DNA of 64,000 nt, taken from contig NC_084801.1 in NCBI RefSeq assembly GCF_963169125.1, forward strand, positions 77,627,696 through 77,691,695. The letters are read 5' to 3'. Of the stretch, positions 6,523 through 49,780 are shown in pieces (the first letter of the stretch is position 1; every line of letters begins with the position of its first letter). This stretch comes from Humulus lupulus (taxonomy: Eukaryota; Streptophyta; Magnoliopsida; Rosales; Cannabaceae). A model generated the notes under the pieces. It searched no databases. It was not told where the DNA came from and saw only the letters and a list, made by a program, of their open reading frames with translations. The position numbers and the translations under genes are program-made.

Positions 6523-8814
6523 TGTAACGCCCTACTACCTTAGAGCCGTTACTAAGTGAGTTTAAAATAGAAATCGTGCTTTTGACTGACTCTAAGTGGG
6601 TTTCTAAAACCAAAAGTGTGGATAAATCAGAATTTAAGGCTGTACTCTTTTAAAATGTTTAACTTCATTGAAAATGTAAGTATAAAACATCTGGGATCCC
6701 AAAATAAGGTTTACAAAATATTTACAACTCAAAAATAGATTTACACCAGGTTAACTATCAAAAGAATGGATTAATACAGCCATTTACAAAATGCCCCCAA
6801 CCAATGCAGTCGGGCAGGCCGAACATGTACGCGCCGCCCCCACGCTCTCCATACTCATGGCCGGTTGACTGACTCCTTGCTTTTACCTGCCACACGGAGC
6901 ACCCATGAGCCGAAGCCCAGCAAGAAAACCCAAATAGTACATAACATATGCAAATAATATAGCTGGCATAATTCACTGATAAATAGGAAAACCATCATAT
7001 TAAACAAGTACGGCCATGCCGCCCCAGAGGCCTTACCAAAGCCTGGGGTTTCGGTTCTCACCGCGAGGATAACTCATGTATCCCTTGGGTCCCACCCTGG
7101 CTATAGCATCCCATGTGCCGAGTGTTACTTCCGGCCCCACTGCCGTACCCGGCCTTCGCCGCTCTCGTCCTTGCCGTTCATTCCATTATAATCACACACA
7201 TATAATACATTATGAAATAACCATTCAAACATACAATAGTTCATCTAAGATTACACATTTGCACACAATACAATCTAGGGTCGTGCCCTGAAATCACACC
7301 GTGGGCCCATGCCCTATTCTCGGGTGTTACGGTTTTCTTACCTTTAGATTCGGTAGCCTTGATCACCTGACTCCTTGAGCACGATCCGATCCTCGAGCCC
7401 TAGCTTAACACCTAGTCACAACCATGAAGAAAGACACCATTAACAACCTTAAATGAGCTTCCAGGCCAAGTTCTAGTACTCGGAACGTTGAACTTCACCA
7501 AACATGGTAAAAGACTCAACCCCGAGCACCCTAGGTTAAATTCCCAAGCCTAAAATCTCAAAATCCCAAAATCCCTTAAGCGCCGCGGCATAGGCCACCC
7601 ATGCCGCGGCATGGCCCCCAAACAGAACCCCAAAAGGCTCAAAAACAGGTAAGGGCCGCGGCATTGCTTGGGCCATGCCGCGGCCCGCCCTTCTCCTTCA
7701 GCATGCAACTTCTTCGAAGGGCCGCGGCTCACCAAGAACCATGCCGCGGCCCGACCCTTCGAACCCAGAAAAAAAACCACCTTTTTACTCTCTAAACCTC
7801 ACCTTAAACCATCCCAAACACATATCTCAACCCCAAAACTAAATTCCAAACTTCATATGAACAATCTAACAACCTATAGACACTAGAATCAAGATCAAAA
7901 CATCAACACACCCAAGATCCACACCTTTGATCTTAAATTTCAGCAACCCAAACCAAAACCTTGAAAAGCTTAACTCAAGCATTAAATTCCTCAAATCAAC
8001 ACAGAAACCAAACTTAAGTGTGTATAAAATCCATACCTTAAGTGAAGAATCCACTCAACAAGCTTCCTTGAACTCCTCCTAAGCTCCCACTTCAGCCTTT
8101 CTACCCTTCTTCTTCTTTTCTTTTTGCTTGCCCTATCTCTTCTTTCTCCTTCTCTTTCTTCTCTTCAATTTCTATCAAAGCCTCAAGTGACCCCAAATGC
8201 CCAAACCGTACCCCCTAAATCCCAGCTGAAAGTTTCATAATTCCCTTGCCAAAAGACCAATTTTCCCCTTCCTAATAATCCTTCCCAACTAAACCTTCAA
8301 GGGCACTTAAGTCTTTACAATTCTATTTCAATTCTATCACTTTCTATCTTAAAACTTGTTACCCACAGCAGTTACAAACAGTTACCCAGGTTACCCAATA
8401 ACTATCCACTCATTCTCAACTCAACTTATAAGATTCCCGAAGTACCCCTAGGCTCCTCCCGAGCCGGGTACAACATCCCGTTGTGACTTTTAGACTAATT
8501 GGCTCACTAGGACCGTCTCGATGCGTGCATCCTGATAATAACATCACACACACATGGCACAATTCACATAGTACAATTATCACAATTATGCCCTAACATG
8601 GCCAGATTACAATCATGCTCATTCTAAGACAATCAGGTCTACATGCATACTAATTCACATAGTCATGCATCTCAAATAATCAAATAGTCATATAACGTGC
8701 AATAAATCGTAATCATGCATTAAACTCAATAAAGACACACACCAAATCCCATCATGCCCTCCAGGCACACTACTCCAGGCCCTTAAGCCTAATAGTGAAA
8801 TTGGGGTCGTTACA
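6523..8814 (-). mobile_element. Solo LTR of a Tekay-like element, 2,292 bp, inverted
   Basis: It begins TGTAACGCCC and ends GGGTCGTTACA, the reverse complement of this family's LTR ends. It is flanked by a perfect TSD ATATG at 6518-6522 and 8815-8819. Removing it plus one TSD rejoins the Athila RT reading frame across the site, so it is a clean insertion followed by LTR-LTR recombination. It contains a GC-rich palindrome array at 7582-7750 and a decayed CGGCAAGGGCCGGGAA minisatellite near 7130-7180. No internal domain remains. Confidence 0.93.
7582..7750. repeat. Array of six GCCGCGGC palindromes in three doublets
   Basis: Exact 8-bp palindromes start at 7582, 7603, 7655, 7677, 7721 and 7743. 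Spacing within doublets is 21, 22 and 22 bp; doublets start 73 and 66 bp apart. Two doublets extend to perfect inverted repeats: 10-bp arms at 7582-7591/7601-7610 and 12-bp arms at 7653-7664/7675-7686. All lie inside the solo LTR in otherwise AT-rich DNA. Confidence 0.9.
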
Positions 8815-20114: not shown

Positions 20115-21903
20115 TGTTGGGTTTTATGCCCTTATAAAACCATGTCAGACATGTAGCACGGTTTCATATTATCAATAAAAATAGTAGAAATTATTTAGTT
20201 TGATAACCATTTTGCTTGCTTGTTTTATTACATGATTATTGAAATAATATAAACATTTATAAAATAACAAACATATGGATAGTTACAATTATAGTGACAA
20301 GGTCATAGTGGATTATAGTTGTAATTATATGTTCAAAAGAATTAGTCCTAAGATTAGATCAGTGCATTGGATTTTCACTGATCAAGCAATCTACGATATG
20401 ATCTACTTACACATTTGGTGTGTGATGTCTTATCCAAGGCATTGACCAAGTAGAAAAGATCAGATGTATTTAGTTACATCGAACTAGGACCAATATTGAT
20501 TATTGATTGATAAATAAGTATCGTTGTTATCGAATCTAATCAATGTCACAACGTTGATCATATGTTAATTCGATATTAATGATGAGTGATAATATTCTGC
20601 TAATTATATTATTTAAATCTTTTGACTTGTTCGTTACCAGCTTACCCTACGGTCTAGCCCATACTTACATCTTGGAGATTTAGTAGTGTAATTGAGTGGG
20701 AGTATTATTCATAGATATGAAATCTATAACTTCTGTATGAAAAGGAAAAAGATGATTTCCTTAATTGCTTTGTTCAAAATGTTAAATGATTGAGATCTCA
20801 TTTCTGTGATTAAGTTCACAAAAATATCATTTATAATGAACTTAGTGGGAGTTAAGGATAAAATACTGATGAGGGGTAAAACTGTAATTTGCACCCATCT
20901 CGTTAGTAAGTCATCGATAGAGGATTGACTGACTGTAATGATTATAACAATGGATAACGTATTTATGGTTTTGAAAATACGTTCTATGAATTCAAGAGTT
21001 CAATTCCGAGTCTATAGTGGAGTCACGAGAATTAATAAGGTAGTGAAATTATATGTAAATAAATTCACAGGTACTTGTTGGAGCTTGATTTCATGGATCC
21101 ATGGTCCCCGCATCACCTTTGAGTAAATCATCTAGATTGTCTCAATTAGTTGATTTAATTATCAATTAGAATTTTTAAAGTTGACTAGGTCAATTTTAGA
21201 AAATTTACAGAGATATGAAATTTAGAGAATAAAATAATTTCTTTGGCTAAATTTATTAATATTGATAAATTGGTGTCAATATAAATAAATAATATTAAAT
21301 CAAGTATCAAAATATAATTAGTTAATTTGAATAAGGATTTAATTAATTAATTAGAAATAAATAAATAAATAAAAGGTTTTGAATTTAGGCCCAAATTGAG
21401 ATATAAATTCAAAACAAAGAGATTGGGCCCAAGTCCATTTATGGCAGCCCAAGGCTTTTATTTTTGTTTATTATTTTTCATTAATTTAAATGTAAATAAA
21501 GCCTATTAAGTTTCCTATATAATGAATATGATATCTAAGATTTTCATAAGGAAATGAGTTTTAGATGATCGGTAAGTGAAAACCTAGATAGTCTAACCTT
21601 TCTTGGCCACTCTCTCTTCTTCTCCTCCTTAAGATCTCTATCTCATGTGTTGAGAACCAACCCACACTAGTTCTAGGTTGATCAAATGCTTGGCGAGGAA
21701 GATTGTGTTGCTGATCTTGTTCAATCTCTTGATAATACTATGCTACAGAAAGGAATCAAGGGTTAGAAGAGATTGAAGGATGGAGTTGTTCCAGTTCCGC
21801 TGCGTAATGTAAGTTATTACTTTACTCTGTATTTGTATCAATATAATAGGAGCATGTGTTTAGGAATTTGCATGTGTTGTTTAATAATATGTATTTCCAA
21901 CAA
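20115..21903 (+). mobile_element. 5' LTR of a Ty1/copia element, 1,789 bp
   Basis: Begins TGTTGGGTTTTATGCC and ends TATTTCCAACA. The matching 3' LTR is at 52681-54500 (1,820 bp). The element is flanked by TSD GTTAA at 20110-20114 and 54501-54505, both within Tat RT codons. The LTR is followed by a tRNA-Met-like primer-binding site (ATTGGCCTCGGAGC, 21904-21917) that differs from the usual TGGTATCAGAGC. Confidence 0.95.
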
Positions 21904-25305: not shown

Positions 25306-27133
25306 ATCTGTGTAACGACCCAAATTTGCTAATAAGACTTAGGGCCTTGATTAGTGTGCCTGGAGGGCAATAAGTGAATTATTGCTATAATATGTGAATT
25401 TATGTGAATACGTGATTAGAGATGATTGTTTAGCTGAATTAAATATGCATGTAGGACCTGTTTGGTTATTAGGGGAATGTTTGCAATTTTAGCCCGATGA
25501 GGGCATAAATGTGATAATTGTTATAATTGTGATATATCTGTGTAGCACGATCCGAGACAGTCCCTGGGAGCTGTTAGCCAGGAAGTCACAACGGGGTTGA
25601 GTGTCTGAATCGGGATGAGTCGAGGGGTATCTCGGGTATTAGATGTTTTATGGGGTTATCAGGTTATGGAAATATATATTTGAGGTTAGAATGTTTAGGA
25701 GGGAAAATTGGGGAAATGTACTATTTTGCCCCTGATGACGTTTTTGGCACCCCGAGCTTTGAGGTAACCTTAGAAGCTTAAGTTAAATAAAACAAAATTC
25801 AGGAAACACTTAGAAACTTGGAGAAACCGACCCAAGAATTTCCTCTTCTCTCTCTCTTTATTTTCTCTAAGTCATACCAAGGGAAATTTTGGTGGAAGCT
25901 AATCAAAACTAAGGAATTCAGCTGGGATTTTGGGAGCTTGAGGCTTGGAGCTTAGGGAACTGGTTTGGGGAATCACTTCAACTAAAGGTGAGCTTTAATC
26001 TTAGTAAATTGTTTTGAGTAGCTGCTGGCTTTCTTAGAGTTTGCATGTGTTTTGGTGATGGATCATTCTTGAGTTTGATGAGGCTTTGAACTTGAATTCT
26101 TGTTGGGTTTTGTAGTTGAATCCATAGTATAACCTTTGTGATGATTAGCTTGAGTTGTTGGGTGGATTTTGGGGTTAATTGTATGGGTTTCTGTGGAAAA
26201 AATGGAGGATTTTTCTAGGTTCGAAGGGTCGGGCCACGACATTGTTCTTGCTGATTCGCGGCCCTACGAAGCATTTTGGTGCCCTGGAAGAAGAGCGGGA
26301 CGCGGCATGCCCTAGCTAGGGCTGCGGCGCGTCTGCCCTGTTTTGGAGTGGCTCTCGGGTTTGGGTGGCCTCATGGGGCCACGACCCTTAGTGTATTTTC
26401 GGGCTTTAATGTAATGCCCTACTGCCTTAGAGCCGTTACTAAGTGATTTTGAAAACGTGCTTTCAACTCGCTAATTGAGGTTTTAGGTCAAATAGTGTAA
26501 TTAAGCCATAAACAGAGGAAAAACTTTAGAAATAACACCATAGCATTGAAAATCATAAAAGTTTGACACCTGGGATCCCAAAATACAGTTTAGAAATATT
26601 TACAACATAAAAATTGAACCAAGTCGACTAAGCGACAAAACCTAAGTTTATTTACAAGCAACTCCCAAAATCCTCTAGCTGTGGCAGCCAGGCTGGCCAA
26701 ACATGTACACGCCGCCTCACGCCTGCTACACTCATGGTTGGTTGACCTTCTCTTTACCCTTACCTGCACCACAGAGCATCTGTGAGCCAAAGCCCAGCAA
26801 GAAAACCCACAAACAGATAACATATGCAACACATAAATCAAGCATATAAACAGGCCACCAATGGGCTAAACACATACGACCTAACCGTCCCAGGCGTTTA
26901 CCAAGCCTTGGGTTCGCGGACCACGCCGTGAGGATATCTCAGGTATCCTTATAGGGACTCGCCCTGGCAACTCGCAATCCACGTGCTCAACGCTGCTCCC
27001 GGCCCCTTGCCGTTCTCAGCCTTGCACTCAGTGTGCCCTTCGCCGTTCCTGGCTCTTGCCGATCATTCACATAATAGCATTCATAGCATAACAAGAAAAT
27101 ACATAATTCTAGCTAATTCAATTAAAGGGCTAC

Positions 27134-28526
27134 TGTTGAGTCTAGTTTTTATCATGTTTTGGTGATGTTTTAGTAGTCTTTTATTTTGTTTTTCTATCAT
27201 TTAGTGCGGGTTTATGCTTTGTTTGTTTGTCTTTGTGAATATCAGGAAGAATTGAGCTCTTGGAAGAAAATGTCAAAGAAATGGAAGAAATAACTAAGTT
27301 TTTCATCATATTTCGAGGAAGAATGGTTCTCAACATAATTTGGAAGTGTTGGTGAATTTTTGGGATAAAAACTCGAAAAATTGAGAAATCCCTTAAGAGC
27401 CACGGCATGAGCAAAGTGGAGCCGCGGCTAGGTGGGAAACAGAACCAATGTTTTGAAGGAAATCCTAGGGCCGCGGCATGGCTAGAGAGGGCTGCGGCAT
27501 TGAAGAGCATCAACCCAGATTTCGTCGACACGGGCCGCGACATGGCTGACTAATGCCGCGACATGATGAGGACCTTTTGCCTAGGAAATTGGACATGGGC
27601 CGCGACATAGTGTATGTAGAGCCGCAGCCCGCCTCTTTAAAATTTGAAGTCCTAGGTTTTATTTTGGCGAAATAGAGGAGAAAATAGAGACGTACGGACG
27701 AGGGAGAAGTGCTGGTTTTGAAGGCTCAGGCTTAGAGTATTTTTTACATGTTTTTCTTCTTCTTCCTGATGTTATCTTTAATTTCTGTTGTGATTAGCAT
27801 TATGATCATGAACTAATTTTCTGTTTAGGATGTTTAATTGAATCACTTGAATTCCTGTTATGAACTAATGCAATTTTAATATTCTTCTTCTTCAATCTTC
27901 TTCAATTCCTTATAACCTGTTTTTATAGATTGATTATTGATTGGCCATCTATAGTCAAATACATATGTTTTTTAAGTCAAAATCTGAGAAGTGAGATTTA
28001 ATTCTGCTGTGGTTATATTGGACATAATTCTAATTTAGAACGAAAGTATCTGAATTAATTGTGTAACTGTTTATTAAGTTGTCGAGATAAATGCTACCTG
28101 TGTGGTTCAATTTACCATATAAATATAGGAAATTGTCACCTAGGTTGAGTTTATAATTCATAGTATGATTATAGGCTGCTGTATCAACTTGTTAATTGAA
28201 TTAGGTAAAAAGAAGAAGAATTCACACTTTGCATTAGGGAATAATAGGGAGGATAGTTGATGAGATTAAATATCCTAATTGTTTCTCAGTGATTAAATTA
28301 AAATTTTTTCTATTAGTTGTTATTCCATTCAATTTTCAATTATTGTTTCTGCACTTTATAGTTTCTTTTGCTGTATTTACAAAAATCAAGAATTTCAATT
28401 CATCAAATAGAACAAGAAATTAATTGACTGGTAATTGATAGATCAGTCCTCGAGGACGATACTTGGTTTTACCATTTTATTACGAATTGCAACTGTGTGC
28501 ACTTGCATAGCAAAAATATCGCAACA
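27134..28526 (+). mobile_element. Solo LTR, Athila-like, 1,393 bp
   Basis: Begins TGTTGAGTCTAG and ends TATCGCAACA, with perfect TSD GCTAC at 27129-27133 and 28527-28531. The 3' end text (GAGGACGATACTTGG, ACCATTTTATTACG) recalls Athila/Tat LTR ends; lineage assignment is by resemblance only. It has no coding content. It contains four GC palindrome doublets at 27399-27628. Confidence 0.8.
27399..27628. repeat. Four GC palindrome doublets in the Athila-like solo LTR
   Basis: GCCGCGGC or one- to two-base variants start at 27399/27421, 27470/27491, 27534/27555 and 27599/27621. Within-doublet spacing is 22, 21, 21 and 22 bp. Doublets start 71, 64 and 65 bp apart. Most variants are explained by C-to-T or G-to-A changes at CpG. 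Confidence 0.88.
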
Positions 28527-28885
28527 GCTACACCCAGCAGTTTAAATAGCTTGGGCTCAGCTCTACATACTAGTTCTATTCAAACACATTGGGCTCAGCC
28601 CTGCATACAAGCTCTATGGGAACGAGGGATTTCTTACCTGAGTCCCGAGCTTTCCGAGCACCGATGCCCCGAGCACAGTCCTCTAACTTGAGCTTCACCG
28701 AAACCCTAGTCATAACACATTAACAATATCCATCCATCAAGTTCTAATCCAGTAAATAACTTCGAGCCATAACCCTAACCTCCAGGACCTTGAATTCTAT
28801 CAATCCGGGTGATAAAATCCATCCCAAGCCTTACCCATTGAGTTCCCAAGCCTAAACACCCTTAACACTCAAACTGGCACTAAGG

Positions 28886-29059
28886 GCCCTGGCCCCACCC
28901 TCAAGAGCCGTGGCTAGCCTCAAAATAGAGGCTAGCACCTCACTGACCCCCACACCGGCCGCGACGCGTGCACCAAGCGCCGCGGCGCGCATGAACCTCT
29001 CGGCCACCCATGGCCGCGCGCGCACACGGGCCGCGGCGCCCCCCTCCTAGGGCCGCGGC
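28886..29059. repeat. Three GC palindrome doublets in the inverted solo LTR
   Basis: Starts at 28886/28907, 28958/28979 and 29030/29052, giving spacings of 21, 21 and 22 bp. Doublets start exactly 72 bp apart. Exact GCCGCGGC is present at 28979, 29030 and 29052. Confidence 0.87.
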
Positions 29060-31077
29060 CCTCACCTCCAAACCCAAAATTTTCCATCTTTCTCCTGCAT
29101 TTTCTTCAAACCAACTCAAGCTAACAGTTCCAGATATTCACCACCAATATTCTAGCCCAGTTTTAACACCATAACCCACCAAAATCTACTCCAAAACTCA
29201 ACTAAAACCCTCAAGAACACTCAGATTCTACCCACATGCATAGCTTAGAAACAAAACTTAAATTCAAGCAAAACTCCCATGGTAGAGCTTACCTTTTGCT
29301 GAATTAGACCTCTGAAGTTGAACCTTAATCCCCAAGCTCCTAGCTCCTTAACTTCAATAGCCCAAAGTCCTCAATTTCCTGACTAGTTCCACCCAAAGTT
29401 CTCCTATGATATGCCTTAGAGAAGAGAAGGTGGGATAGAGGGAGAGTAATAGAAAGTTATCCTCAGCTGAGAAGGAGAGTATAAGTCGTTTTCTCTAAGT
29501 TTCTAAACAATTTTCTCTTTTTGTTTTATTCACTTAAATCTATGTGGTTACCTCAAGGCTAGGGGTACCAAAACGTCCCCGAGGGCAAAATGGTAAATTT
29601 CCCCAGTATTCCCTCCTAGACATTCTATCCTCAAATATATCTCCAAATATTTATTTTCATGTCCCGATAACCCCATAACTCATCTAATACCCGAATTACC
29701 CCTCGACTCGCCCTGAGTCCGAATCTCATCCCTGTTGTGACTTTCAGGTTAACCGCTCCCCAAGACTGTCTCGGATCGTGCTGCACAGACATATCACATA
29801 TATATAACATTTATCACATTTATGCCCCTAATATCCAGACGGGGCCCACATGCACATTTAACTCAATTAAACATGCATCATTATCATATATTCACATAAA
29901 TCCACATGTAAGCATATTAAATCATTTATTGCCCTCCAGGCACACTAATCAAGGCCCTAAGCCCTATTAGCAAATTCGGGTTTACATTTAAAGTGTGTTT
30001 AGGCTTGGGAACTCAAAGGTGAAGGCTCAGAACGAATTTTATCACCCGGATTGATAGAATTCAAGGTCCCAGAGACTAGAATTGTGGCTTGAAGTCATTT
30101 AATGGATTAGAACTTGATGGATGAATATTGTTAATGCGTTGTGACTAGGGTTTCAGCAAGGCTCAGACTAGAGGACTGTGCTCGAGACATCGGTGCTTAG
30201 AAAGCTCAAGACACAGGTAAGGAAACTACTGTACCCATAGAGCTTGTGATGCATGGCACGACCCTATATGATTGTGTTGCAGGGCGTAGCCCTTTAATAG
30301 AGTTTATTAATGTGTTAAGTATTTGCTTTACTATGCTATGCGTGCATATGTGTGAATGATCGCCAAGAGCCGGGAACAGCGAGGGCCGGGAATGGTGAAG
30401 GCCAAGATTGGCCGGCAACGGCAAGGGGCCAGCAACGGAATTAAGCACGTGGAGTGCAAGGTCGAGTGCGGCAAGGGGTCAGGAGCAACGTTTAGCACGT
30501 GGAGTGTGAGTTGCCAGGGCGAGACCCTAAAGGATACCTAGGATATCCTCACGGTGTGGATCGCGAACCGAGGGCCTGGTAAAGCGCCTGGGATGGCATG
30601 GCCGTATGTGGTTAGCCTAATGATGGTTTATTTATATGCTAAGTGTTTGATATGCATATGTTATATGCTTGTGAGTGTTTTCTTACTAGGCTTAGGCTCA
30701 CGGGTGCTCTGTGGTGCAGGTAAGGGCAAGGGGAAAGTCGACCAACCATGAGTACGGAGAGCGTGAAGCGGCGCGTACATGTTTGGCCTTCCTGGCTGCC
30801 AAAGCCAGGGGTATTTTGGGAGATGATTGTACTAAACCTAGATTTTGTCGCTTAGCCGACTCTGATTATGTTTTTGAGTTGTAAATATTTCTACGCAGTA
30901 TTTTGGGATCCCAAATGTTTAAACGTTTTATGATTTTCAGTAAATGGGATTATTTTCAAAGTTTATGACTCTGTTTATGGTTTAATTACACTTTTTTCTT
31001 AAAACCTCGATTAGCGAGTTAAATGCACATTTTAAACTCACTTAGTAACGACTCTAAGGAAGTAGGGCGTTACAACT

Positions 31078-32999: not shown

Positions 33000-35930
33000 G
33001 CAAATGTTGTGGATACCTCTAGGGTTGTGACTGTTGGACCGGGGGAGACCAGATTGGTATGTGAGTTCCCAGATTTATTTCCAGCAGATCTGCCAGGGTT
33101 ACTGCTGTAGCGGGAGATTGATTTTGTCATAGAGCTGGTACTAGGGGCAGAGCCAGTATCTAGGACACCATATAGAATGGCTCCAACAGAATTAAAAGAG
33201 TTGAAGATTCAGTTGCAGGAGTTACTAGATTTGGGGTTCATCAGACCGAGTTCTCGCCATGGGGTGCTCCAGTATTGTTTGTCAAGAAGAAGGATGGATC
33301 TCTTAGGATGTGTATTGACTACAGGGAGCTGAATAAGTTGACCATTAAGAACAAGTATCCACTGCCTAGGATCGACGATTTATTTGATCAGTTACAAGGA
33401 AGGACAGTGTTTTCCAAGATTGATCTCCGCTTAGGTTACCATCAGTTAAGGACCTAGGAGGAGGACATACCAAAGACCGCTTTCCGAACGAGGTATGGAC
33501 ACTATGAATTCCTGGTTATGTCCTTTGGATTAACCAATGCCCCAACAACCTTTATGGATATGATGAATAGGATTTTCAAGGATTATCTAGATAAGTTTGT
33601 GATTGTGTTCATCGATGACATTCTGGTGTATTCTTAGTCAGAGATTGAGCATGAGCAGCATCTCCGGTTGGTATTGCAACAGTTGAGGGAACATAAGTTA
33701 TATGCTAAGTTTATCAAGTGCGAGTTCTGGTTACTGAAAGTTACATTTCTGGGCCATATCGTCAGTAAGGTGGGGATTCTTGTTGACCCAAGTAAGAGAG
33801 AGGTAGTGAGAGACTGGCCTAGACCGAGCAATGTTCCTGAAGTGAGGAGTTTTCTGGGTTTCGCAGGGTATTAACGGCGGTTTGTTGAGGGGTTCTCCAG
33901 GATAGCTACGTCGTTGAGAAAATTAACAAAGAAGAAGACAAAGTATGTTTGGATAGACAGATGTTAGAACAGTTTCAAAGAGTTGAAGCGGCGACTGATC
34001 ACCGCGCCAGTGTTGAGTTTGCCGATAGAGAATGAGAAGTTTGTGGTTTACTGTGATGCTTCCAGACAAGGTTTAGGTTGTGTGCTGATGCAAGCTAGTA
34101 AGGTGATAGCCTATGCATTGAGACAGTTAAAGGAGTATGAGCAGAGATATCCCACGCATGATTTGGAGTTGGCAGCAATGGTATTCGCACTTAAGATTTG
34201 GAGACATTATCTGTATGGAGAGATCTATGAGATATACACCGACCATAAGAGTTTGAAGTACTTCAAACTTAGAAGGGTCTGAATATGCGCTAGAGACAGT
34301 GGCTGGAGTTGGTTAAGGATTATGATTGTGATATCCTATACCATCCTGGGAAGGCCAATGTAGTGGCTGATGCATTGAGTCGGAAAGGCCAAGGACAGTT
34401 GTTCAGTTCGAGAAAGATATCTGAGAAGCTAGTTGAGGAGATGACTAGAGCGGGTATAGAGTTGGTGGTTGGCCGGTTAGCCAACATCACTCTTCAGTCT
34501 ACACTCCTTGAGAGGATCAAGGAGGCGCAAGGGAAGGATTCCCAGTTGAGAGATCGCATAGAGAACGTCTTAGTCAGAGTAGCTAAGGACTTTTCTATTT
34601 CAGAGATGGGGTTACTGAAGTACAAGGATCAGATCTGTGTTCCGATGGATTCTGATATTGGATGGGAGATCTTAGATGAACTGTATACCACTCTCTATTC
34701 CATACATCGAGGTACAACAAAGATGTACCAGGATCTGAGAGCTTTGTATTGGTGGTCGGGAATGAAGAGGGATGTGGTGGATTATGTGGCCAAGTTCTTA
34801 ACTTGTCAGTAGGTCAAGGCTGAACATCAGAGGCCAGCAGGGTTGCTGCAGCCTCTGGGGATTCCAGAGTGGAAGTGGGAAGATATCACCATGGACTTCG
34901 TGGTTGGTTTGCCGAAAACCGTGGGTCAGCATGACTCGGTGTGGGTTATTGTGGATAGGTATACCAAGTTCACCCACTTTTTACCTATCAGGATGACTTA
35001 TACTGTGGAGCAGTATACTGAGTTATAAGTGATGGAAATTGTTCGACTTCATGGGGCTTCGAGGTCGATAGTATCCGACAGGGACCCCACCTTCACCTCT
35101 AAGTTTTGGGAGAGTCCGTAGAAAGCTATGGGCACACAGTTACAGTTTAGTATCGCTTGTCATCCTCAGATGGATGGACAGTCTGAGAGGATGATTCAAA
35201 TACTGGAGGACATGTTGCGAGCCTGTGTGCTAGACTTTGGGGGATCTTGGAGTAAGTATCTCCCTTTGATTGAGTTCTCGTACAACAACAGTTATCAGGC
35301 GACTATCGAAGTGGCTTCATATGAGATGCTTTATGCGAGGAAGTGTAGATCACCTATCCATTGGGATGAGATAGGTGAGAGGAGTTATTTAGGTCCTGAG
35401 ATGGTTCAGAGGACCAATGAGGCGATTGAGAAGATTAGAGCTCAAATGCTCTCCTCCCAAAGTTGCTAGAAGAGTTACTCAGACTTTAGACGCAGAAGTG
35501 TAGAGTTTCAGGTCGATGACCATGTGTTTCTTAGGGTTTTAACTTTGAGGGGAGTGAAACGGTTTGGTGTTCTGGGAAAGCTGAGCCCTAGGTTTGTTGG
35601 CCCCTTCGAGATTCTGGAACGAGTTGGAGAGGTAGCTTACAGATTGGCAATGCCTCCAGCCTTATCAGGGGTTCATAATGTTTTTCACGTATCCATGCTC
35701 CAGAAGTATGTATCAGATTCGTCGCACATTTTGAGTTATGAGAATTTGGAGCTGGACTAGGATTTGTCTTATGAGGAGAAGCCGGTTTAGATTCTTGACC
35801 AGAAGGATAAAGTCTTGCGGAGCAAGACCATCGCCTTGGTGAAAGTGCTGTCGAGGAACAACAAGATTAAGGAGGCAATGTGGGAACTTGAGTGCGGGAG
35901 CGGTATCCCGAGTTGTTCACGTAATTTCGG
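33000..35930 (+). pseudogene. Tekay-like pol (RT, RNase H, integrase, chromodomain)
   Basis: RT at 33130-33880 includes [13 protein letters not shown] and the active site [10 protein letters not shown], which is intact, followed directly by a stop. RNase H at 33990-34280 shows [15 protein letters not shown] and [11 protein letters not shown]. Integrase at 34330-35460 has the zinc region (HRGTTKMYQDL, FLTC), then [16 protein letters not shown] and DGQSERMIQ with the catalytic D, D and E. The C-terminal part ends in a chromodomain-like segment at 35770-35900 (ILDQKDKVLRSKTIALVKV). The chromodomain and tRNA-Met primer site support the Tekay/Del chromovirus lineage. Scattered stops and frameshifts inactivate it. 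Confidence 0.9.
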
Positions 35931-36563
35931 GGATGAAATTTCTGTAAGGAGGGGATAGTTGTAATGACCAAAATTTGCTAATAAGGCCTAGGGCCTTGAT
36001 TAGCGTGCATGGAGGGCAATAAGTGAATTATTGCTATAATATGTGAATTTACGTGAATACGTGATTAGATATGCATGTTTAGCTGAATTAAATATGCATG
36101 TGGGCCCCGTTTGGTTATTAAGGGCATGTTTGCAATTTTAGCCCGATGAGGGCATAAATGTGATAATTGTTATAATTGTGATATATCTGTGTAGCACGAT
36201 CCGAGACAGTCCCTGGGAGCTGTTTGCGAGGAAGTCACAACGGGGTTGAGTATCTGACTCAGGACGAGACGAGGGGTATCTTGGGTATTAGATGTTTTAT
36301 GGGGTTATCGGGTTATGGAAATAAATATTTGGAGATATATTTGAGGTTAGAATGTTTAGGAGGGAAAATTGGGAAATTTACTATTTTGCCCCCGAGGACG
36401 TTTTTGGCACCCCGTGCTTTGAGGTAACCTTAGAAGCTTAAGTTAAATAAAACAGAATTTAGGAAACACTTAGAAACTTGGAGAAACTGACCGAAGCATT
36501 TCCTCTTCTCTCTCTCTTTATTTTCTCTAAGACATACCAAGGGAAATTTTGGTGGAAGCTAAT

Positions 36564-37330
36564 TGTACGCCCTGATTTTCCGACGGGCTGATTAACGAGC
36601 TGAGATACGGCCTAATCATGACTACCACGTGGACCTCCCTGAGACCGGAGCTACCATCGTAAGGTCCTACCTCCTTAGCTCGAGGTAACCCAAGGGTTCG
36701 CCAAGATCGCTTAACGACTAAGTTTGGACTCTGAGGGCCGCAGGTCGAGGCAAGCATCCAGCTTGTGGTACGAGTTGGAGGTGAGGGCTGTGACCTCTTA
36801 TAAAGTCAGCCACGCAAGGTAAACGTGCTTATATCAGACATCACGTGTCTAATATACCCCTGACTTCTCGGACATGCAGTAGGAACGTGCGTATTTAGAC
36901 ATCCACTACTGGTTTGGGCCATGCGGCCCATTATCCCCTTATCTATTGATTTGACCACACTTATGTGTCAGGTTTAGGAATTAATCATGAATGTCACAGA
37001 GTTGACATGATAGGTAAGAAGGTCACGGGATGACCTTCTTACCAACTCCCAGGTGCCTTCTCCTATAAATATGGAGACCTTGGGAGTTAATAGGGGTTTT
37101 TTTTTTGGTTGGATTCTTGATTGTAAGAAATACCCTGTAATCAAATACCCAGTATATAGCAATAATACTGACTAGTGGAGTAGAAGGATTTTAACCTTTG
37201 AACCACTTAAAAAACGTATTTTGAGCCACCCTTTCATTCCTAAGATCATTTATCTGTTTCGGTTCAACCTAAGCATTAATCCCTTTCTCTTCTTTTCTTA
37301 ATTACCTGTTGGCGAAGAACCGCGTCAACA
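36564..37330 (+). mobile_element. 5' LTR of Tat-II element, 767 bp
   Basis: TGTACGCCCT...GCGTCAACA. The element spans 36564-48856 (12,293 bp) with TSD CTAAT at 36559-36563 and 48857-48861; the empty site is visible in the 5' LTR copy at about 25910. Its two LTRs have the same length and differ at about two dozen positions by eye (about 97% identity). TATAAAT lies at 37074-37080. The sequence after the LTR (TTTGGTGCTTTCATTGAGAG) is shared with Tat-I. Confidence 0.97.
37013..37043. repeat. Perfect 13-bp inverted repeat upstream of the Tat-II TATA box
   Basis: Arms GGTAAGAAGGTCA and TGACCTTCTTACC with a 5-nt loop CGGGA, about 30 bp upstream of TATAAAT. The 3' LTR keeps it without change at 48539-48569 although the LTRs differ elsewhere. 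Confidence 0.92.
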
Positions 37331-37385
37331 GTTTGGTGCTTTCATTGAGAGCAAGTTCGATTAGTGCTATCGCAAACACCCAACT

Positions 37386-39608
37386 ATGGTGACTACTCGA
37401 TCCAGGCACGGTAATGAGACAGAACAGCATGATGGGCAAAAGGCTCATCATACTGCCATTCCTGGTGAACAAATTCCTGAAGTCCAGCAGCGGCTCGGTA
37501 AGCAGCCGGCGGGCCAAGACGACACCGGAAGTTCGGCGCCCCGGCCACCTAATCCGAACCCATGTTATTACACTGCGGTGGAGATGGAGAATACTCAGCT
37601 GAGGAGCCAGCTAGCAATAGCTAACCAGCAGATCAAGGATGTGCTGGCCCGACTACCTTCTCTCACAACCGACGCTAACGTCGGAGAGAGGCAAGGCGAT
37701 GCTCCTAAGTCTCGCCGGGGTAATCGGTCTAGGCATAGCCGCTTGGATAGACTTCCGACAGCCAACTCCACTCCCTCATCGCACCGACGAGAGGCAGACT
37801 TCAGAGGAATGCCTAGAGCCGAACAACAGCAGTACAGCCGTTCAGTCAGGACTTCAACTCCTAGCTCCCAACCAGCCTCGAGCACGCCCAGGGGAGCTCG
37901 AGGAAATTCCAGAAGGAGGTCCGGGGAGGGCTTACAGCGTCAGCCCATCCCCAATAGTCATCCTGTGCCTCCTCCAGACCGCCAGGCGCGGGACCCCCAG
38001 GTTGGCAGGGCCGAAAGGCCCCCACCTAATTTGATCCGTCCTGACGGAACTAGGATCGCGTCTTCAGTCAGGCATCCTCCGTCTCCAATCAGATATCCAT
38101 CTCCTTCTCGGCCCATCTGAGATATCCCGGCCTATGGAAGTATCAGGAGAAACCCGCCATCAGCCGGACCTTCCCGATGTAGCAGGGCGCCAAGGGAAAG
38201 CCCAGGTCCTCAGCACCAAAGGCGAGCTCCAAGCCTCTCTAGCAGGAGCTACTGGACCAGCAGTCGCCGGAGTGACCTTTCTGGTGGAGACCTTCATCAG
38301 CGTTTGAGCTCGGCACAAAGTCCACAAGCCACCTAGGGGGCGACCTGCGAGATCGCCTTAACTCTCATAGAGGGGAGCCAGCAGGAGGAGACAGCCATGC
38401 TCGCTCAGGGGGAGCCTTGTCCGAAGCATGTAACGGCGGGAATGCCCCAAATAACCTATCTCAAGATAGGAAGGGCAATAACCCACCAAATATGTACAAT
38501 GGATCCGGAGCTGTTGAACAGCCTCGGAATAACCAAGGACATCAGGACCAAACCCTCGAGTGCCTGGCCAGATGGAGGAGCTGATGAGGAAGCTCCTATC
38601 GGAGAAATAGAAAGATGAGTACGATTTGGGGGATGAGATGGAGCTCTTCGCCCCCAGCATAGCAGCAACGGCGTACCCACCTGGTTTCCGTATGCCGCAC
38701 CTGTCTAAGTTCAATGGAGACGGAGACCCGTCAGATCATCTGGGGATGTTCAACACCCTGATGATGGCTCACAACATTGTCCCCGAGCTGAGGTGTTTAA
38801 TCTTTCCTTCCACCCTGACTGGACCAGCCAGGCAGTGGTTCAAGCAAGGCAAAAGATAGTCAATCAACTCCTGGAAAACTTTCTCGGCTGATTTCAAAAG
38901 GGCATTCCGAGCCTCCCAGGTTGCCCGCGTTCAGGCCGACTCTCTGGCTAACGTGAGGCAGCAGCCCGGTGAAACTCTGAAGGCTTACCTGAGCAGATTT
39001 ACGAACGTCGCTGCTTGAGCCAGAGACGCGGATGATAGCTCCAAGATCATGACCATGAGAACTAGAATCCTCATCGGAGGGGATCTCTGGAAAGATATAC
39101 AAAGAAAGGGAGTCAGCTCGGTTAACGAGTTCCTCAACAGGGCCCAGGAATGGATCAACTTGGAGGAAGCCGAAGCCTCAGCTGCAGGAACTAGCCAGGT
39201 CCCTGATCAGCCCGCTGGAGTGGGGACGGAGTTCGTGACAGCGACCAAAACGTCACACAGAACAACTAGCTCGGTGGAGGCAAAAGAAAGGGGAATGGTG
39301 AAGGCAGCCAGCACGGCCAAAAGAAGAATAAGTCCGTGGACAAGTTCAAGCCCGTCTACGCGACTTATACAGAGCTCACGCAGTCTAGGGAGAATATCTT
39401 CCTAGCTAACTCTACTCGCCTCCCCTGGAAGAGGCCGGAGCCATTGAAGCACCAGAAGGGGAAGAGAGACACCTCCAAGTTTTGCCGTTTTCACAACGAT
39501 GTTGGCCACAATACTGATGATTGTAGGCATTTGAAGGATGAGATCGAGACTCTCATCCGAGCCGGCCCCTTGGCTCAGTACGCGGGGAATAGGGTCCGAG
39601 CAAGTTGA
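37386..39608 (+). pseudogene. Tat-II gag
   Basis: Starts MVTTRSRHGNETEQ at 37386. It has a disordered, Arg/Pro/Ser-rich N-terminus, a capsid-like core at about 38680-39130 (FRMPHLSKFNGDGDPSDHLGMFN, LTGPARQWFK, ETLKAYLSRF), and a knuckle CRFHNDVGHNTDDC at about 39480. Frame breaks occur between 38120 and 38626 and near 38857 and 39018. The final segment is in the same frame as pol, separated by one TGA at 39606-39608. Confidence 0.88.
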
Positions 39609-42600
39609 CCTGCTCCAGAAGTCCCGGCCAGTCAGCCTGGGTCTCGGGTAGATCAGGATGTCCCTCCTCCCGTGATAGGAGGGAAGATATCCACCATCTC
39701 TGGAGGTCTGCATATGGCTGGCACAAGTAGGGGTGCCCAGAAGAGGTACGTAAATGAAATTAAGGCGCACAATGGAGTAGAGTTCGTCCCGGAACAACGC
39801 CTGCCAAAGCAACAGCGATTGGAGAAGCAACCAATCATTTTTACAGAAGATGATGCGAGCCATGTCCAGTTCCCACACAATGACCCTCTGGTCGTAACAA
39901 TTCAGCTCGCTAATCGGAGGGTTAAGAGGGTGCTGATCGACAATGGGAGCTCGGTGAACCTCCTATTCTGGTCCACGTTAGAAAAGATGGGTTTGACTGT
40001 CGCCGAGCTGAAGGCGACCTCCATGATGCTGTATGGTTTTTTGGGAGAAGGATCGGCAGCCATAGGGATGATTGAGCTGGTGATCACCCTGGGAGAAGGA
40101 TCTCAGACAGTCTCCAAACTCCTCGAGTTCATGGTCATCGACTACTCCGCTGCGTACAACGCAATTTTGGGACGACCTACGCTCATAGCTTTTGAGGCCG
40201 TCACTTCCATTCTCCACCTCGCGATGAAATTCCCTACTTCCATGGGAATATGCGCTGTCCATGGCGATCAACTCGTTGCCAGGGAATGCTACAACATTTC
40301 CATGAAGGGAAAATCTAAACCCGGGCAGCTGGCAATGGCCATCCAAGGTGGTGAAGAGGAATCTCAGGAACCCTTAGCTGATCCTGAGATTGAAAAACCT
40401 CAAAGCGCCGAAGGGGAAAATATCGTCTTAAGTGAGGATATTGACCCTCGAATAGGCGAGGACAGATCCGAGCTCCAAGCTATTGAGGAGCTCGAGGAAG
40501 TAAACATTGATTCGCAGAATCCATCACGGATGGTCAAGCTCGGAAAAATCCTCTGCAGCGAGAGGAAGGTGGAGCTGGTCAGATTTCTGCGGGATAACCT
40601 GGATGTGTTTGCGTGGTCACACGAGGACATGGTGGGAATCAACCCGAGTGTCATCATGCACACACTTTATCTGGATAAAAGCGTTCCTACAAAGTCCAAG
40701 AAGCAGAGATGCCTAGGAACAACCCGGGCTGAAGCCTTGGAGGAGGAGGTGGCCCGGCTAAAAAAATGCGGCTTTATCAATGAAGCCAAGTTTCCAATAT
40801 GGGTCGCCAACCCCGTGCTGGTGCCGAAGCCCAACGGGAAATGGCGGACCTGCATCGACTTCTCCGACCTGAATAAAGCCTACCCCAAGGATTGTTTTCC
40901 ATTGCCAAGGATTGACCAGTTGGTGGATGCCACGGCGGGGCACGAGCTCATGTCCTTTATGGAAGTGTACTCAGGCTACAATCAGATCGCCATGAATCCA
41001 GCGGACCAGGAGCACACCAGTTTCATGACCCCGACTAAGGTTTATTGTTACAAGGTCATGCCCTTCGGGTTGAAGAACGCCAGAGCTACGTATCAAAGGT
41101 TGGTGAATAGAATGTTCGCAGACCAGATCGGAAAAAACATGGAAGTGTACGTTGATGACATGCTAGTCAAGTCAAAGACTGCCGATAACCATGTTTCTGA
41201 CCTGGAAGAATGCTTCAAGATCCTACGGGAGTATGGCATGAGGCTAAATCCACAGAAGTGCACTTTCGGAGTAACATCGGGAAAATTCCTGGGTTTCATC
41301 ATCAATACCCAAGGAATCGAGGCAAACCCGGACAAGATCAGATCGTTGCTCGAGCTTCCCTCACCCAGGTCACGCAAAGATGTCCAAGGCCTGATAGGAA
41401 GAGTAGCAGCTCTCAATCAGTTTATTTCCAAGTCCACCGATAAGTGTTTGCCATTCTACAACCTGCTCCAAGGAAATAAGAAGTTCGAATGGACAGAAGA
41501 ATGCAAAAGCGCTTTCCTCGACCTGAAGGCACATCTGCCCGAGCCACCCGTACTATCCAAACCAAAAGCAGGAGAGCCTCTTTTTCTCTACCTGGCTGTC
41601 ACAGAGGATGCAGCCAGTGCCGTGTTGGTCCGGGAAGAAGACCGGATTCAGAAGCCAGTCTACTACATCAGCAAGAGACTTCTCAGAGCTGAATCCCAGT
41701 ACCCGTTGATGGAGAAATTGGCGTTCTGCCTTATCACGGCCTCGCGAAAGCTCAGGCCGTACTTCCAGTCCCACTCAATACACGTCATGACCGACCAGCC
41801 TTTAAGGCAGGTTTTGTAAAAACCTGAAGCATCGGGATGCTTGTTAAAGTGGGCAATCGAACTCAGCCAGTTCGAAATTTTGTACACTCCGCGAACTGCT
41901 ATAAAGAGTCAGGCCCTGGCCGATTTTGTAGCAGAGTGCACAGGATTTCGGGAGGATCCTGTAGAAGGCCCACCCAAGGTCTCCTCGGCCCAGGCATCGT
42001 GGAGGATATTAGTGGATGGTTCATCCAACGAGAATAGCTGCGGAGCTAAAATCATTTTGATATCCCCTGAGCACATCGATTCCACTCGGTGCTGAGGTTC
42101 GGGTTCAAGGCCTCTAACAACGAGGCCGAATACGAAGCTTTGCTAGCCGGGCTAAGGATAGCTCAACAGCTGAAGGCGAGCTCCGTCCAGTGCTTCAGTG
42201 ACTCCCAGCTCGTGGTAAACTAGGTTATGGGCGAATATCAAGGACGGGGACATAAGATGGCTGCCTATCTAGCAAGGGTAAAGGTTGAGCTGTCAGCGTT
42301 CGGGCGGGGCTCGATCGAGTAGATACCTCGGGAGCAGAACACTAATGCAGACGCTCTTGCTAAGCTCGCCACCTCCGGGGAAATGGAGACCTTGGGGTTA
42401 GTGCCATTAGAATTCTTGGAGAAACCTAGTATGGAAGAAGACAGGGCGGAGGTCAAAATGATTGACGCCAGGCCGACCTGGATGACCCCCATACTTGAGT
42501 ATCTCATCGAGGGAAAGCTACCTGAAGGGCGTAATGATGCGCGACAAGTTCTATATCAAGCTCCCAGGTACGCTATAATAGATGGGGTGTTATACCGACG

Positions 42601-43275
42601 TGGGCACTCCCTACCTCTCCTACGATGTGTTCTTCCAGGTGAAGCAAAGGCCATCCTGCAGGAAGTGCATGAGGGTTTTTGCGGAGATCACACTGGGGGG
42701 CAAAGCTTGGCCTTAAAGGTCCTGAGGCAAGGTTATTACTGGCCAACTCTGTCCAAAGACTCAATCTCATATGTGAAGAAGTGCGAAAAATTCCAGAACA
42801 GCTCCCCCAGGTTCTCTGGGCATACCGGACCTCGCATCGGACTCCTACTGGTCATACTCCTTTCTCCCTGACCTTTGGGAGTGAAGCAGTCCTCCCTGTG
42901 GAAATAAAGGTACTTTCGCATAGGGTCCATTCATACGACCAGGATCGCAACCATGAGCTACTTCACAGTTCCTTAGACTTGATTGATGAAAGACGAGAAG
43001 ATTCGCAACTCCAGCTCGCCCATTATCAGCAGAAGATCACTCGCTATTTCAACTCAAAAGTAAAAAATCGCACCTTTAGCGTTGGCGACCTGGTCCTTAG
43101 GAGAGTTTTCTTGGCCAATAAGGACCCCAAAGATGGAGTCTTGGGACCGAACTGGGAAGGACCATATCAAGTCATCGAGGCCATTAAGGAGGGAACTTAT
43201 AAGTTTGCTCGGCTCGATGGAGGGGCAGTCCCACGGAACTGGAACGCCATCCATTTGAAGAGATACTATCAATGA
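39609..43275 (+). pseudogene. Tat-II pol: protease, RT, RNase H, second RNase H, integrase lacking its core
   Basis: A long open stretch at 39672-41819 holds protease (LIDNGSS, D90 counting from 39672), RT with YVDD at residues 493-496, and RNase H ending at a TAA at 41817. The frame continues after that stop into a second, archaeal-type RNase H (ILVDGSSNENSCGA, near 42005) known from the Tat lineage, with further breaks from 42093. Integrase restarts at 42383: the zinc-binding region is present (HEGFCGDHTGG...VKKCEK, 42665-42790), then the text jumps directly to IPEQLPQVLWAYRTSHRTPTG. The catalytic core carrying D, D and E is missing. The C-terminal part (43080-43275, GDLVLRRV, GPNWEGPYQV) is intact. 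Confidence 0.9.
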
Positions 43276-43417
43276 TTCACTTGTAAGGCCTGAAAGGCCA
43301 TTTTTTATGTATTAAGCAATGAGAATCAACTTTTTGTTTATATTTGTACATGTTTTCAAGTGTAATCTAAAGTAACCACGAAAGACCCTTTCCCAGTTAC
43401 TTGGGGAGCATATGGTA

Positions 43418-44250
43418 CCTGGATATAACCAGGCCGCCTTAATGACTTAGAAGTTGATTCGTATCGATTGATCGTTGTTTTTCTTAAAAAAAAAACGCGA
43501 GATATTGGTAAGAATTAACGCGAAATAAGTCCTATCCTGGATTTAACCAGGTCATAAAACTTAGAAGTTGATTTAAATCTATTGATTGTTGTTCTTCCTA
43601 AAGAGCTCGAGATATTGATAAAAATTAACACGAACTAAGTTTTCAAATTAAGTTCCTGGATATAACCAGGTCATAAAACTTAGAAGTTGATTTAAATCTA
43701 TTGATCGTTGTTCTTCCTAAAGAGCTCGAGATATTGATAAAAATTAACACGAACTAAGTTTTCAAATTAAGTTCCTGGATATAACCAGGTCATAAAACTT
43801 AGAAGTTTATTTAAATCTATTGATCGTTGTTCTTCCTAAAGAGCTCGAGATATTGATAAAAATTAACACGAACTAAGTTTTCAAATTAAGTTCCTGGATA
43901 TAACCAAGTCATAAAACTTAGAAGTTGATTTAAATCTATTGATCGTTGTTCTTCCTAAAGAGCTCGAGATATTGATAAAAATTAACACGAAATAAGTTTT
44001 CAAATTAATTTCTTGGATATAACCAGGTCATAAAACGTAGAAGTTGATTTAAATCTATTGGTCATTGTTCTTCCTAAAGAGCTTGAGATATTGATAAAAA
44101 TTAAACACGAACTATGTTTTCAAATTAAGTTCCTGGATATAACCAGGTCATAAAACTTAGAAGTTAATTTAAATCTATTGATCGTTGTTCTTCCTAAAGA
44201 GCTCGAGATATAGATAAAGATTAACGCGAACTAAGTTTTTCAAAATAGTA
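43418..44250. repeat. 119-bp tandem repeat array, about 7 copies, in Tat-II
   Basis: The unit mark CCTGGATATAACCAGG (itself a short palindrome) starts at 43418, 43536, 43655, 43774, 43893, 44012 and 44132, giving periods of 118, 119, 119, 119, 119 and 120 bp. Inner copies are nearly identical; the first is diverged. Arrays between pol and the 3' LTR are a known Tat trait. Confidence 0.95.
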
Positions 44251-44393
44251 ACTAAAATGCGTAGAGGCAAAGGGCAATAAATCAATTAAAAAAAATTTTG
44301 ATAGTTAAATTGTCTCGAGGTGTAAGCACCTCATGCAGAAGTTACACAGAAAAATTTAAAAATATTCAAGAAAAGGGCACAAAGAGGAAGGCC

Positions 44394-47079: not shown

Positions 47080-47087
47080 CTGGTTGC

Positions 47088-47826
47088 CTAGCGAACAAAA
47101 GAAAAGAAGAAAAGGCGACCTGAGCATGAGGAAAAATCAAATGTTCTTTGCACGAGCTGAGGTAAGCCCAGCTCGTGGAGAGTGAGACCACGCGGTTCTA
47201 TGAACACGCGCCTGTGCTCCCAACAGATCCCCAATTACTCAGAATTCGTGTGTCAGGAGGGTTAGGTTAAAATTTTTCCTTGGAGGGAAAGTTCCAATAG
47301 GCAAGAAAGGCAAAACCGCCTGTGAAGCGTGTCCCCTAAGCTACCCGATTTTGCACCCAAAATACTGGATATTTTGAACTAATGTCTCAAAAATCCTACC
47401 CAGAAATTTTCCCCAGAAAATGCATCCTGTAAACCATGCTCCTAAACGGCTTCCTACTATAAACAATACCCTAACCTAAAAGGCTTTCACCCTTCATTCC
47501 CACAAAACCCAGCAAACCCTTGCATGCGGCTACAGTAAATATTTACCTAAGCTACAGTGAAAATAATTTCAAAACATGCATAGTCAGGAGACTTACAGAA
47601 TGTTTGGTTGGGAAGTGGATGAAGGAATCGCCTGGGTTGGAACTTTGTCGGAGTAGTTGGTCTCAAGGCTTCGAAGGAGTCCTTGCACCTGAGTTTCTGG
47701 AACGCCGAAGGTAGTAACTGGAAAGAGGAAAATGGGGGATTTTTGAGAGCACGAAGAAGAGAAAATTTTGGAAAATTTTGAATGAACGGGTGGCCCATGC
47801 GTAAGGTGGCCACCCCTTTTTATATG
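47088..47826 (-). promoter_or_regulatory. Promoter and 5'UTR intron of the Tat-II antisense gene
   Basis: On the minus strand a TATA box (CATATAAAAAGGGG, 47812-47825) is followed by a donor TCT-GTAAGTC (47596) and an acceptor CGCTAG (47088) nine bases before the ATG. The deduced intron is 509 bp. The second copy at 61615-62364 has the same order and spacing, which is why I accept it. Confidence 0.72.
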
Positions 47827-48089
47827 CGTGAAGGGTCACGTGAAGAGGGCCGTTGGATTTCCCAGATGTGGGATCCAAGGCCCTCCACTCGAAAGATGAA
47901 ACGACGGCTGGGCATAGGCTAGGCCATTTAATGCGGTTCTCGGAAGACGTACCGTCGCCAACCAGGATGTTCCACGTATTCGGCGCCTGCGTAGAATGTG
48001 GAATATGAAGAGTTCATGGGGAAGCCTAAAAGCCCCTACTGTGGGCCTACACGATGTCGTGTACCACGAGTAGAGGCTTGAGGGGCAGA

Positions 48090-48856
48090 TGTACGCCCTA
48101 ATTTTCCCACGGGCTGATTAACGAGCTGAGATACGGCCTAATCATGACTACCACGTGGACCTCCCCGAGACAAAAGCTACCATCGTAAGGTCCTACCTCC
48201 TTAGCTCGAGGTAACCCAAGGGTTCGCCAAGATCGCTTAACGACTGAGTCTGGACTCTGAGGGCCGCAGGTCGAGGCAAGCATCCAGTTCGTGGTACGAG
48301 CTGGAGGTGAGGGCTGTGACCTCTTATAAAGTCAGCCACGTAAGGTAAACGTGCATATATCAGACATCACGTGTCTGATATACCCCTGACTTCTCAGACA
48401 CGCAGTAGGAACGTGCGTATTCAGACATCCACAACTGGTTTGGGCCGTGCGGCCCATTATCCCCTTATCTATTGATTTGACCACACTTATGTGTCAGGTT
48501 TAGGAATTAATCATGAATGTCACAGAGTTGACATGATAGGTAAGAAGGTCACGGGATGACCTTCTTACCAACTCCCATGTGCCTTCTCCTATAAATATGG
48601 AGACCTTGGGAGTTAATAGGGGTTTTTTTTTTGGTTGGATTCTTGATTGTAAGAAATACCCTGTAATCAAATACCCAGTATATAGCAATAATACTGACTA
48701 GTGGAGTAGAAGGATTTTAACCTTTGAACCACTTAAAAAACGTATTTTGAGCCACCCTTTCATTCCTAAGATCATTTATCTGTTTCAGTTCAACCTAAGC
48801 ACTAATCCCTTTCTCTTCTTTTCTTAATTACCTGTTGGCGAAGAACTGCGTCAACA
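48090..48856 (+). mobile_element. 3' LTR of Tat-II, 767 bp
   Basis: Starts TGTACGCCCT right after a polypurine tract (GGCTTGAGGGGCAGA, 48075-48089) and ends GCGTCAACA before TSD CTAAT. See the 5' LTR for comparison. Confidence 0.97.
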
Positions 48857-49701: not shown

Positions 49702-49780
49702 CGGCAAGAGCCGAGAACGGCAAGGGCCGGGAATGGCGAAGGCCGAGATCGGCAAGGCCGGGAACGGAAAGGGGCCAGAA
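49702..49780. repeat. 16-bp minisatellite in the Tekay LTR
   Basis: Units of the type CGGCAAGGGCCGGGAA start at 49702, 49718, 49734, 49750 and 49765, about five copies with substitutions. Counterparts occur at 30361-30438 and, inverted, near 27000-27065, 56730-56825 and 63436-63505 with different copy numbers. Confidence 0.85.

Follow-up and report, generated by a model that had tools for sequence, protein, structure and literature searches.

Given that a GC-rich palindrome recurs in doublets within long terminal repeats (LTRs) of different retrotransposon families, the question raised by this locus is whether the geometry of the boxes is real and, if so, what it would serve. The window, the whole 64,000-nucleotide stretch of Humulus lupulus DNA that was analyzed, contains 12 exact copies of the 8-bp self-complementary GC palindrome GCCGCGGC and 39 matches at up to one mismatch, which form 11 pairs at a lag of 21 or 22 bp (five and six pairs, respectively) and zero pairs at lags of 15–20 and 23–30 bp. 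Sixty dinucleotide shuffles of the whole window at the same tolerance gave a mean of 4.9 matches and no lag-21/22 pairs, in agreement with an earlier sequence-only reading, which had claimed doublets 21–22 bp apart. At up to two mismatches, 157 matches and 20 lag-21/22 pairs were found, against a shuffled mean of 0.13 and maximum of 1. When each array was shuffled locally (300 times per array), the observed pair count was never reached for the arrays starting at 7582, 27399, 49192 and 57187, was reached once each for those at 26233 and 28886, and five times for that at 63909. GCCGCGGC also tops all 256 self-complementary 8-mers in lag-21/22 pairs (11), followed by ATATATAT and TATATATA with 10 pairs each, out of 135 and 108 matches. 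The paired GC-palindrome observation is real.

The boxes and their spacing can be read directly from the DNA. Successive boxes are spaced 21/52/22/44/22 bp in the array at 7582–7750, 22/49/21/43/21/44/22 bp in that at 27399–27628, and 21/51/21/51/22 bp in that at 28886–29059, the last series leaving out two overlapping two-mismatch boxes at 29013 and 29033. Doublets accordingly recur every 73 and 66 bp, 71, 64 and 65 bp, and 72 and 72 bp, matching the 64–73 bp recurrence claimed earlier for the clearest arrays. Among the copies designated S0, S1, S3 and Athila-like below, the spacing within doublets is 21 or 22 bp in 12 of 12 cases and the gaps between doublets are 43–52 bp; the corresponding variances, 0.27 and 14.8, come from values entered by hand, from non-independent lineages and from doublets picked in part by their spacing. 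At up to two mismatches, S0 has six boxes and the Athila-like array eight, every one in a doublet, and S1 has eight, of which 29013 and 29033 lie outside doublets. A looser scan, for pairs 20–23 bp apart with a summed mismatch of at most five, returned no pair in the LTRs of the element E2 and weak pairs elsewhere, several of them inside E2, that were taken as background.

Retrotransposon copies carrying the arrays

Plant retrotransposons, nested in one another, make up the window. The Tekay-like element E1 (25311–50408, plus strand) is flanked by ATCTG duplications, and its 5′ LTR (25311–26409 and 29992–31074) and 3′ LTR (35960–36563 and 48857–50408), both on the plus strand, are each interrupted by a later insertion. 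The 5′ LTR array (26233–26385, plus strand) consists of doublets 26233/26255 and 26299/26321 and an eroded box at 26378, and the 3′ LTR array (49192–49337, plus strand) of doublets 49192/49214 and 49258/49280 and an eroded box at 49330. The solo Tekay-like LTR S1 (26410–29986, minus strand, TTTAA duplication) carries its array at 28886–29059 on the minus strand, with doublets 28886/28907, 28958/28979 and 29030/29052. Inserted in S1 is the Athila-like solo LTR (27134–28526, plus strand), bounded by GCTAC target duplications (27129–27133 and 28527–28531), whose plus-strand array at 27399–27628 comprises four doublets with boxes at 27399, 27421, 27470, 27491, 27534, 27555, 27599 and 27621. A solo or partial Tekay-like LTR, S0, spans 6523–8690, its low end being clear and its high end approximate; a search for its target duplication found none, and its minus sense was assigned by comparison with E1. 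The S0 array (7582–7750, minus strand) holds three doublets, with boxes at 7582, 7603, 7655, 7677, 7721 and 7743, all exact. The solo Tekay-like LTR S2 (56136–58292, minus strand, CTATC target duplications) has an eroded minus-strand array at 57187–57338, with doublets 57187/57208 and 57309/57331 and a single box at 57259. In the Tekay-like LTR S3 (low end 62836, minus sense), the minus-strand array at 63909–64000 is cut by the window end and retains doublet 63909/63931, a box at 63975 and the first five bases of a box at 63996.

The sequence-only reading had listed these arrays with the exception of the Tekay-like one in the E1 5′ LTR. Boxes do lie where it placed them, but the arrays at 49192–49337 and 57187–57338 are eroded and that at 63909–64000 is truncated, with only one or two clear doublets in each of the three at up to two mismatches per box. 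Whether the arrays share one LTR position had been posed as a check, and the array is directly seen to lie 1051–1107 bp from the LTR 3′ end in six of six Tekay-like copies (1059 bp in S0, 1078 in S1, 1051 in S2, 1073 in S3, and 1071 and 1107 in the E1 3′ and 5′ LTRs). CpG counts per 200 bp are 10–14 over the Athila-like array and 0–5 elsewhere in that LTR; over the S0 and S2 arrays they are 11–15, and other windows of these two LTRs reach 11 and 15. No TATA box could be placed in the Tekay-like LTRs, and the Athila-like LTR has only a weak, putative TATA-like match, TTTAAA (27636–27641, plus strand), 8 bp past its last box.

Family labels were assigned from domains and LTR-adjacent signals. 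In E1, reverse transcriptase pieces (33176–33637) precede integrase pieces (34294–35760), which is the Ty3 order, and a Tf2-1-type SH3 domain is present. The gag piece (E1 gag is at 31879) had 16 protein matches, the eight with an organism name all being from Humulus lupulus (49–81% identical), which points to hop or a relative as host. Beside the LTR, a primer site for initiator Met tRNA starts at 31077 on the plus strand as an exact match of the pattern that we take as a mark of Tekay chromoviruses. The piece at 35791–35958 resembles a chromodomain by eye, with neither Pfam (at 0.1) nor PDB yielding a match. The Tekay-like label of E1 is provisional, with the primer site in its favor. The copy at 27134–28526 is a solo LTR with no internal region, which we presume to be Athila-like, as in the sequence-only reading, and on the plus strand, from its 3′-end signature; the Athila primer pattern is absent from the window.

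Read from the window's self-comparison, the nesting has three levels, with the Athila-like solo LTR within S1 within E1 (25311–50408), and the LTR element E2 (36564–48856) lies within E1's other (3′) LTR. Further repeats in the window include a tandem array of about six copies of a 119-bp unit inside E2 (43415–44368), a 1.8-kb sequence present twice on the same strand at 92% identity (20115–21893 and 52681–54454), and 16-bp GC-rich tandem repeats in Tekay-like LTRs (49702–49772 and 63448–63495) that are separate from the box arrays.

Decay and conservation of the boxes

Across 34 boxes in 17 doublets, which are non-independent and leave out E1's eroded outermost doublet, the single middle box of S2 and the cut doublet of S3, 30 of the 272 positions carry a base other than that of GCCGCGGC, and 26 of these 30 substitutions are C>T or G>A. 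By hand count, 13 of these 26 fall at CpG, 11 at CHG positions and two at ends. Part of the box sequence variation is methylation-type decay. The variants had been attributed earlier to CpG decay, an attribution that does not extend to the commonest change, GCCGCGGC to GCCGCGAC, which makes up nine of the 30 substitutions and sits at a CHG position rather than at a CpG. GCCGCGAC is present at 27534, 27555, 27599 and 28958 and among the E1 boxes, and its asymmetry is unexpected under strand-symmetric decay of a palindrome. Because this G-to-A change of the seventh base occurs nine times versus two for the mirror change, GCCGCGAC may be an older box variant. The two LTRs of one element are identical at insertion, and those of E1 have since come to differ at 20 substituted positions within the array (153 bp) and at 19 across the remaining 350 bp or so of the segment compared.

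The observation that spacing is better kept than sequence had been taken to indicate selection on geometry. For the dead Tekay-like copies this argument is weakened, because CpG/CHG point decay gives the same picture of fixed spacing with changing sequence. P0018 is a predicted protein of 142 residues from an 818-bp contig in ENA; it reads, in antisense, through a relative of the Athila-like LTR, with 72 of 93 residues identical. The P0018 codons permit an exact box at six offsets, spaced 44, 21, 44, 21 and 49, with a one-mismatch box following after 22; for the same boxes the window spacings are 44, 21, 43, 21, 49 and 22, and the window's last box falls outside the protein. Shuffled P0018 sequences permit a box at a mean of 0.48 offsets, and the two pairs of the real protein were not equaled in any of 500 shuffles. 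Codon agreement between P0018 and the window, in hand-chosen frames and leaving out four codons at a frameshift, is 22/23 at the sites, 24/44 in the in-array linkers and 55/71 in the flank, so that boxes are directly seen to be better kept than linkers in this relative. CpG-rich boxes are expected to mutate fastest, and the order of sites over flank over linkers is therefore the best evidence for selection on the boxes. A second ENA record, P0001 (a predicted protein of 81 residues from a 693-bp contig), matches S0, and its codons permit an exact box at spacings of 22, 45, 22, 52 and 21 versus 22, 44, 22, 52 and 21 in S0; the within-doublet spacings (22, 22 and 21) are kept, and one between-doublet gap has gone from 44 to 45. 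Both are single short records compared as codons rather than as DNA. The P0018 codon pattern suggests selection on boxes and spacing, and the two records together favor the earlier proposal that the DNA carries an array of sites whose geometry is constrained.

Function and history of the arrays

Our best explanation, to which we give roughly an even chance, is that these are cis-regulatory site arrays in Tekay-like and Athila-like LTRs, bound by a dimeric host protein; protein binding, cooperativity and a transcriptional role are the parts of it that we infer. Each 8-bp palindrome would be recognized by a host DNA-binding protein with two-fold symmetry (a dimer), and sites two helical turns apart would place two dimers on the same DNA face. 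The doublet is predicted to be the cooperative unit, with two to four doublets per array, and the array would most likely drive or tune LTR transcription, in the manner of Sirevirus RM boxes, which are also palindromic. The gaps between doublets are not whole helical turns, and therefore the entire array would not lie on one DNA face. CAMTA (CGCG box), LBD and ERF proteins are, by motif resemblance, what we assume to be candidate binders; a literature search for a CAMTA connection yielded nothing usable.

The same arrays might instead be a neutral relic, a short GC-rich unit that underwent duplication in an ancestral LTR and was then disseminated by recombination, the spacing of which survives CpG/CHG decay of the substitution type. 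The excess of C>T and G>A changes in the boxes, the fast substitution in the E1 array pair and the common flanking letters of S0 doublets 2 and 3 would all fit such an origin. It is nevertheless unlikely, given that the P0018 boxes are better kept than linkers or flank, the reverse of neutral CpG decay, and that Tandem Repeats Finder gave only two two-copy fragments at the arrays (7582–7620 and 29028–29069), a result on which a simple minisatellite was also rejected. By analogy with the small RNAs of maize Sireviruses, an epigenetic role is the main functional rival, in which CpG/CHG-dense palindromes would draw methylation or make small RNAs, as has been reported for the palindrome-rich LTR regions of maize Sireviruses. 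The methylation-type decay at CpG (13/30) and CHG (11/30) positions is consistent with this role, and Sirevirus palindromes are small-RNA mapping hotspots according to the excerpts of PMC5311732. A methylation or small-RNA target, however, needs no spacing fixed to within 1 bp, and decay follows from methylation and says nothing on the array recruiting it; we regard this role as distinctly improbable.

An RNA structure, with doublets acting as stem-loops or palindromes as dimerization loops in the element RNA, is very improbable on the folding results. The S0 sense RNA does fold better than its shuffles (z −4.1, 0/200 as good), boxes 7582 and 7603 pair fully together in its minimum-energy fold, and palindromes could permit dimerization between RNAs. 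The Athila-like sense RNA, on the other hand, has z −0.7 with 47/200 shuffles as good, and box-to-box pairing within doublets is found in 0/4 Athila-like and 1/3 S0 doublets in the minimum-energy folds, 2/3 S0 doublets pairing across doublets. Pairing next to the boxes is at the permuted level, 22/60 versus 21.5 in 10 doublets of S0, S1 and the Athila-like array (outer 12/30 versus 11.6, inner 10/30 versus 9.9) and 38/102 versus 38.4 in 17 doublets (outer 24/51 versus 23.0, inner 14/51 versus 15.4). The RNA-hairpin option raised earlier is thus not supported as regards doublet stem-loops. Self-symmetry beyond the box, 24/60 versus 19.4, is not significant (P 0.12). Each box is itself palindromic, which is required of dimer sites and unneeded for stem arms. 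A known RNA family was rejected, as a scan of the window against Rfam at gathering thresholds gave nothing.

The history of the arrays was approached through their flanks and linkers. Aligned on the same window strand, the S0 and Athila-like arrays score 75, 100 linker shuffles averaging 29 and never exceeding 45. With no box included, the 60 bases that precede the first box give a score of 34 between the two, a value matched in 0/4908 background windows (best 31) and due to a 12-base run adjoining the first box; a 10-base run follows the first doublet at a nearly equal offset, the linker matching weakly (67/4926 as good). No match to the Athila-like LTR was found for the S0 downstream flank (2128/4908 as good), in two further linker tests (360 and 3810 of 4936), or for the upstream flanks of S1 (1967/4908), S2 (2163/4908), S3 (1964/4908) and the E1 3′ LTR (696/4908). 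Compared with one another, the flanks of S0 and E1 are clearly of related sequence (0/4908 as good). The E1 3′ array scores 55 against the Athila-like array on the opposite strand (100 shuffles, at most 48) and 26 on the same strand. An opposite orientation of the array in the two lineages was set aside as unsafe, the flank and strand comparisons being mixed. Common descent of the whole Tekay-like and Athila-like arrays was also rejected, since only the S0 upstream flank and, weakly, the first linker match.

The sequence comparison suggests, short of proof, that the first doublet and its flank in S0 and the Athila-like LTR have a common origin, a reading drawn from over a dozen comparisons with differing outcomes. 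That LTR had been described as unrelated-looking, a description weakened by the S0 5′ flank match, the other comparisons being negative or mixed. It is conceivable, if doubtful, that a two-turn palindrome doublet cassette is common to two deep Ty3/gypsy lineages, transferred or arisen twice for one host protein; in that case, unrelated retrotransposons would rely on one host factor that needs two dimers on one DNA face.

Comparison with known systems

Arrays of sites for host proteins occur in other retrotransposons. The Drosophila gypsy insulator is an array of Su(Hw) sites in the 5′ untranslated region of a Ty3/gypsy element; it is like the present arrays in being a host-protein site array on such an element, unlike them in motif and place and in having no palindrome doublets, and serves as an analogy only. 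Tnt1-type activator boxes are other motifs, partly symmetric, in two or three tandem copies for host factors; they are alike in being repeated host-factor sites in an LTR and unlike in motif and copy number.

Searches beyond the hop window were also made. The doublet pattern matched 90 stretches of viral contigs, of which 80 were listed and at least five lie below 50% GC; the matches were taken as chance. An 18-mer from the LTR end had no viral match and a single one among the collected genomes, in a Sulfurimonas bin, no plasmid matched 7400–7900, and 75 viral stretches matched a pattern from the E1 integrase piece, none confirmed. In the literature excerpts retrieved, no description of arrays of this type in Tekay or Athila was found, GCCGCGGC in a retrotransposon context led to one paper, on Neurospora telomeric silencing and judged unrelated, and the hop repeat papers made no mention of palindromes; the excerpts of PMC6911290 concern insertion sites, with arrays absent.

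The sequence-only reading knew of no named element of this type, but a precedent in kind exists in the RM boxes of Sireviruses (Bousios et al. 2010, PMC2829016), which the excerpted text describes, with no known binding protein, as GC palindromes containing CpG, clustered in the LTR in 8–32 copies, forming CpG islands and set in diverged flanks. The same source mentions the activator boxes arranged in tandem in Ty1/copia LTRs, Tnt1 among them. The likeness is in short CpG-bearing GC palindromes, present in many copies in one part of the LTR and kept against diverged flanks. RM boxes differ in their carrier, Sireviruses being Ty1/copia elements and E1 having the Ty3 order (the Athila-like copy, a solo LTR, falls outside this comparison), and in their core, CGG-CCG, where GCCGCGGC has CCG before CGG. 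They number at least eight and up to 32 per element, compared with eight in the Athila-like LTR and six in S0, and have a conserved TATA shortly downstream, compared with the weak TTTAAA here; 21–22 bp doublets are a feature of the present arrays, and none are named for RM boxes in the excerpts (PMC2829016). RM boxes are called Sirevirus-specific relative to classic Ty1/copia elements, and the excerpts contain no test of Ty3/gypsy elements. In maize Sireviruses, too, the regulatory region of the LTR holds fast-varying palindromes to which small RNAs map (PMC5311732, in excerpt); these are alike in kind and place to those described here and differ in being carried by Ty1/copia families.

The present arrays are not RM boxes, because two defining features, the Ty1/copia host and the CGG-CCG core, fail. 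By analogy they probably work like RM boxes, and if so, palindromic CpG box arrays would be a recurring solution of plant LTRs beyond Sireviruses, in which the rigid doublet spacing would offer a handle for finding a host protein that abundant Ty3/gypsy elements may need and would let one ask whether LTR lineages swap promoters.
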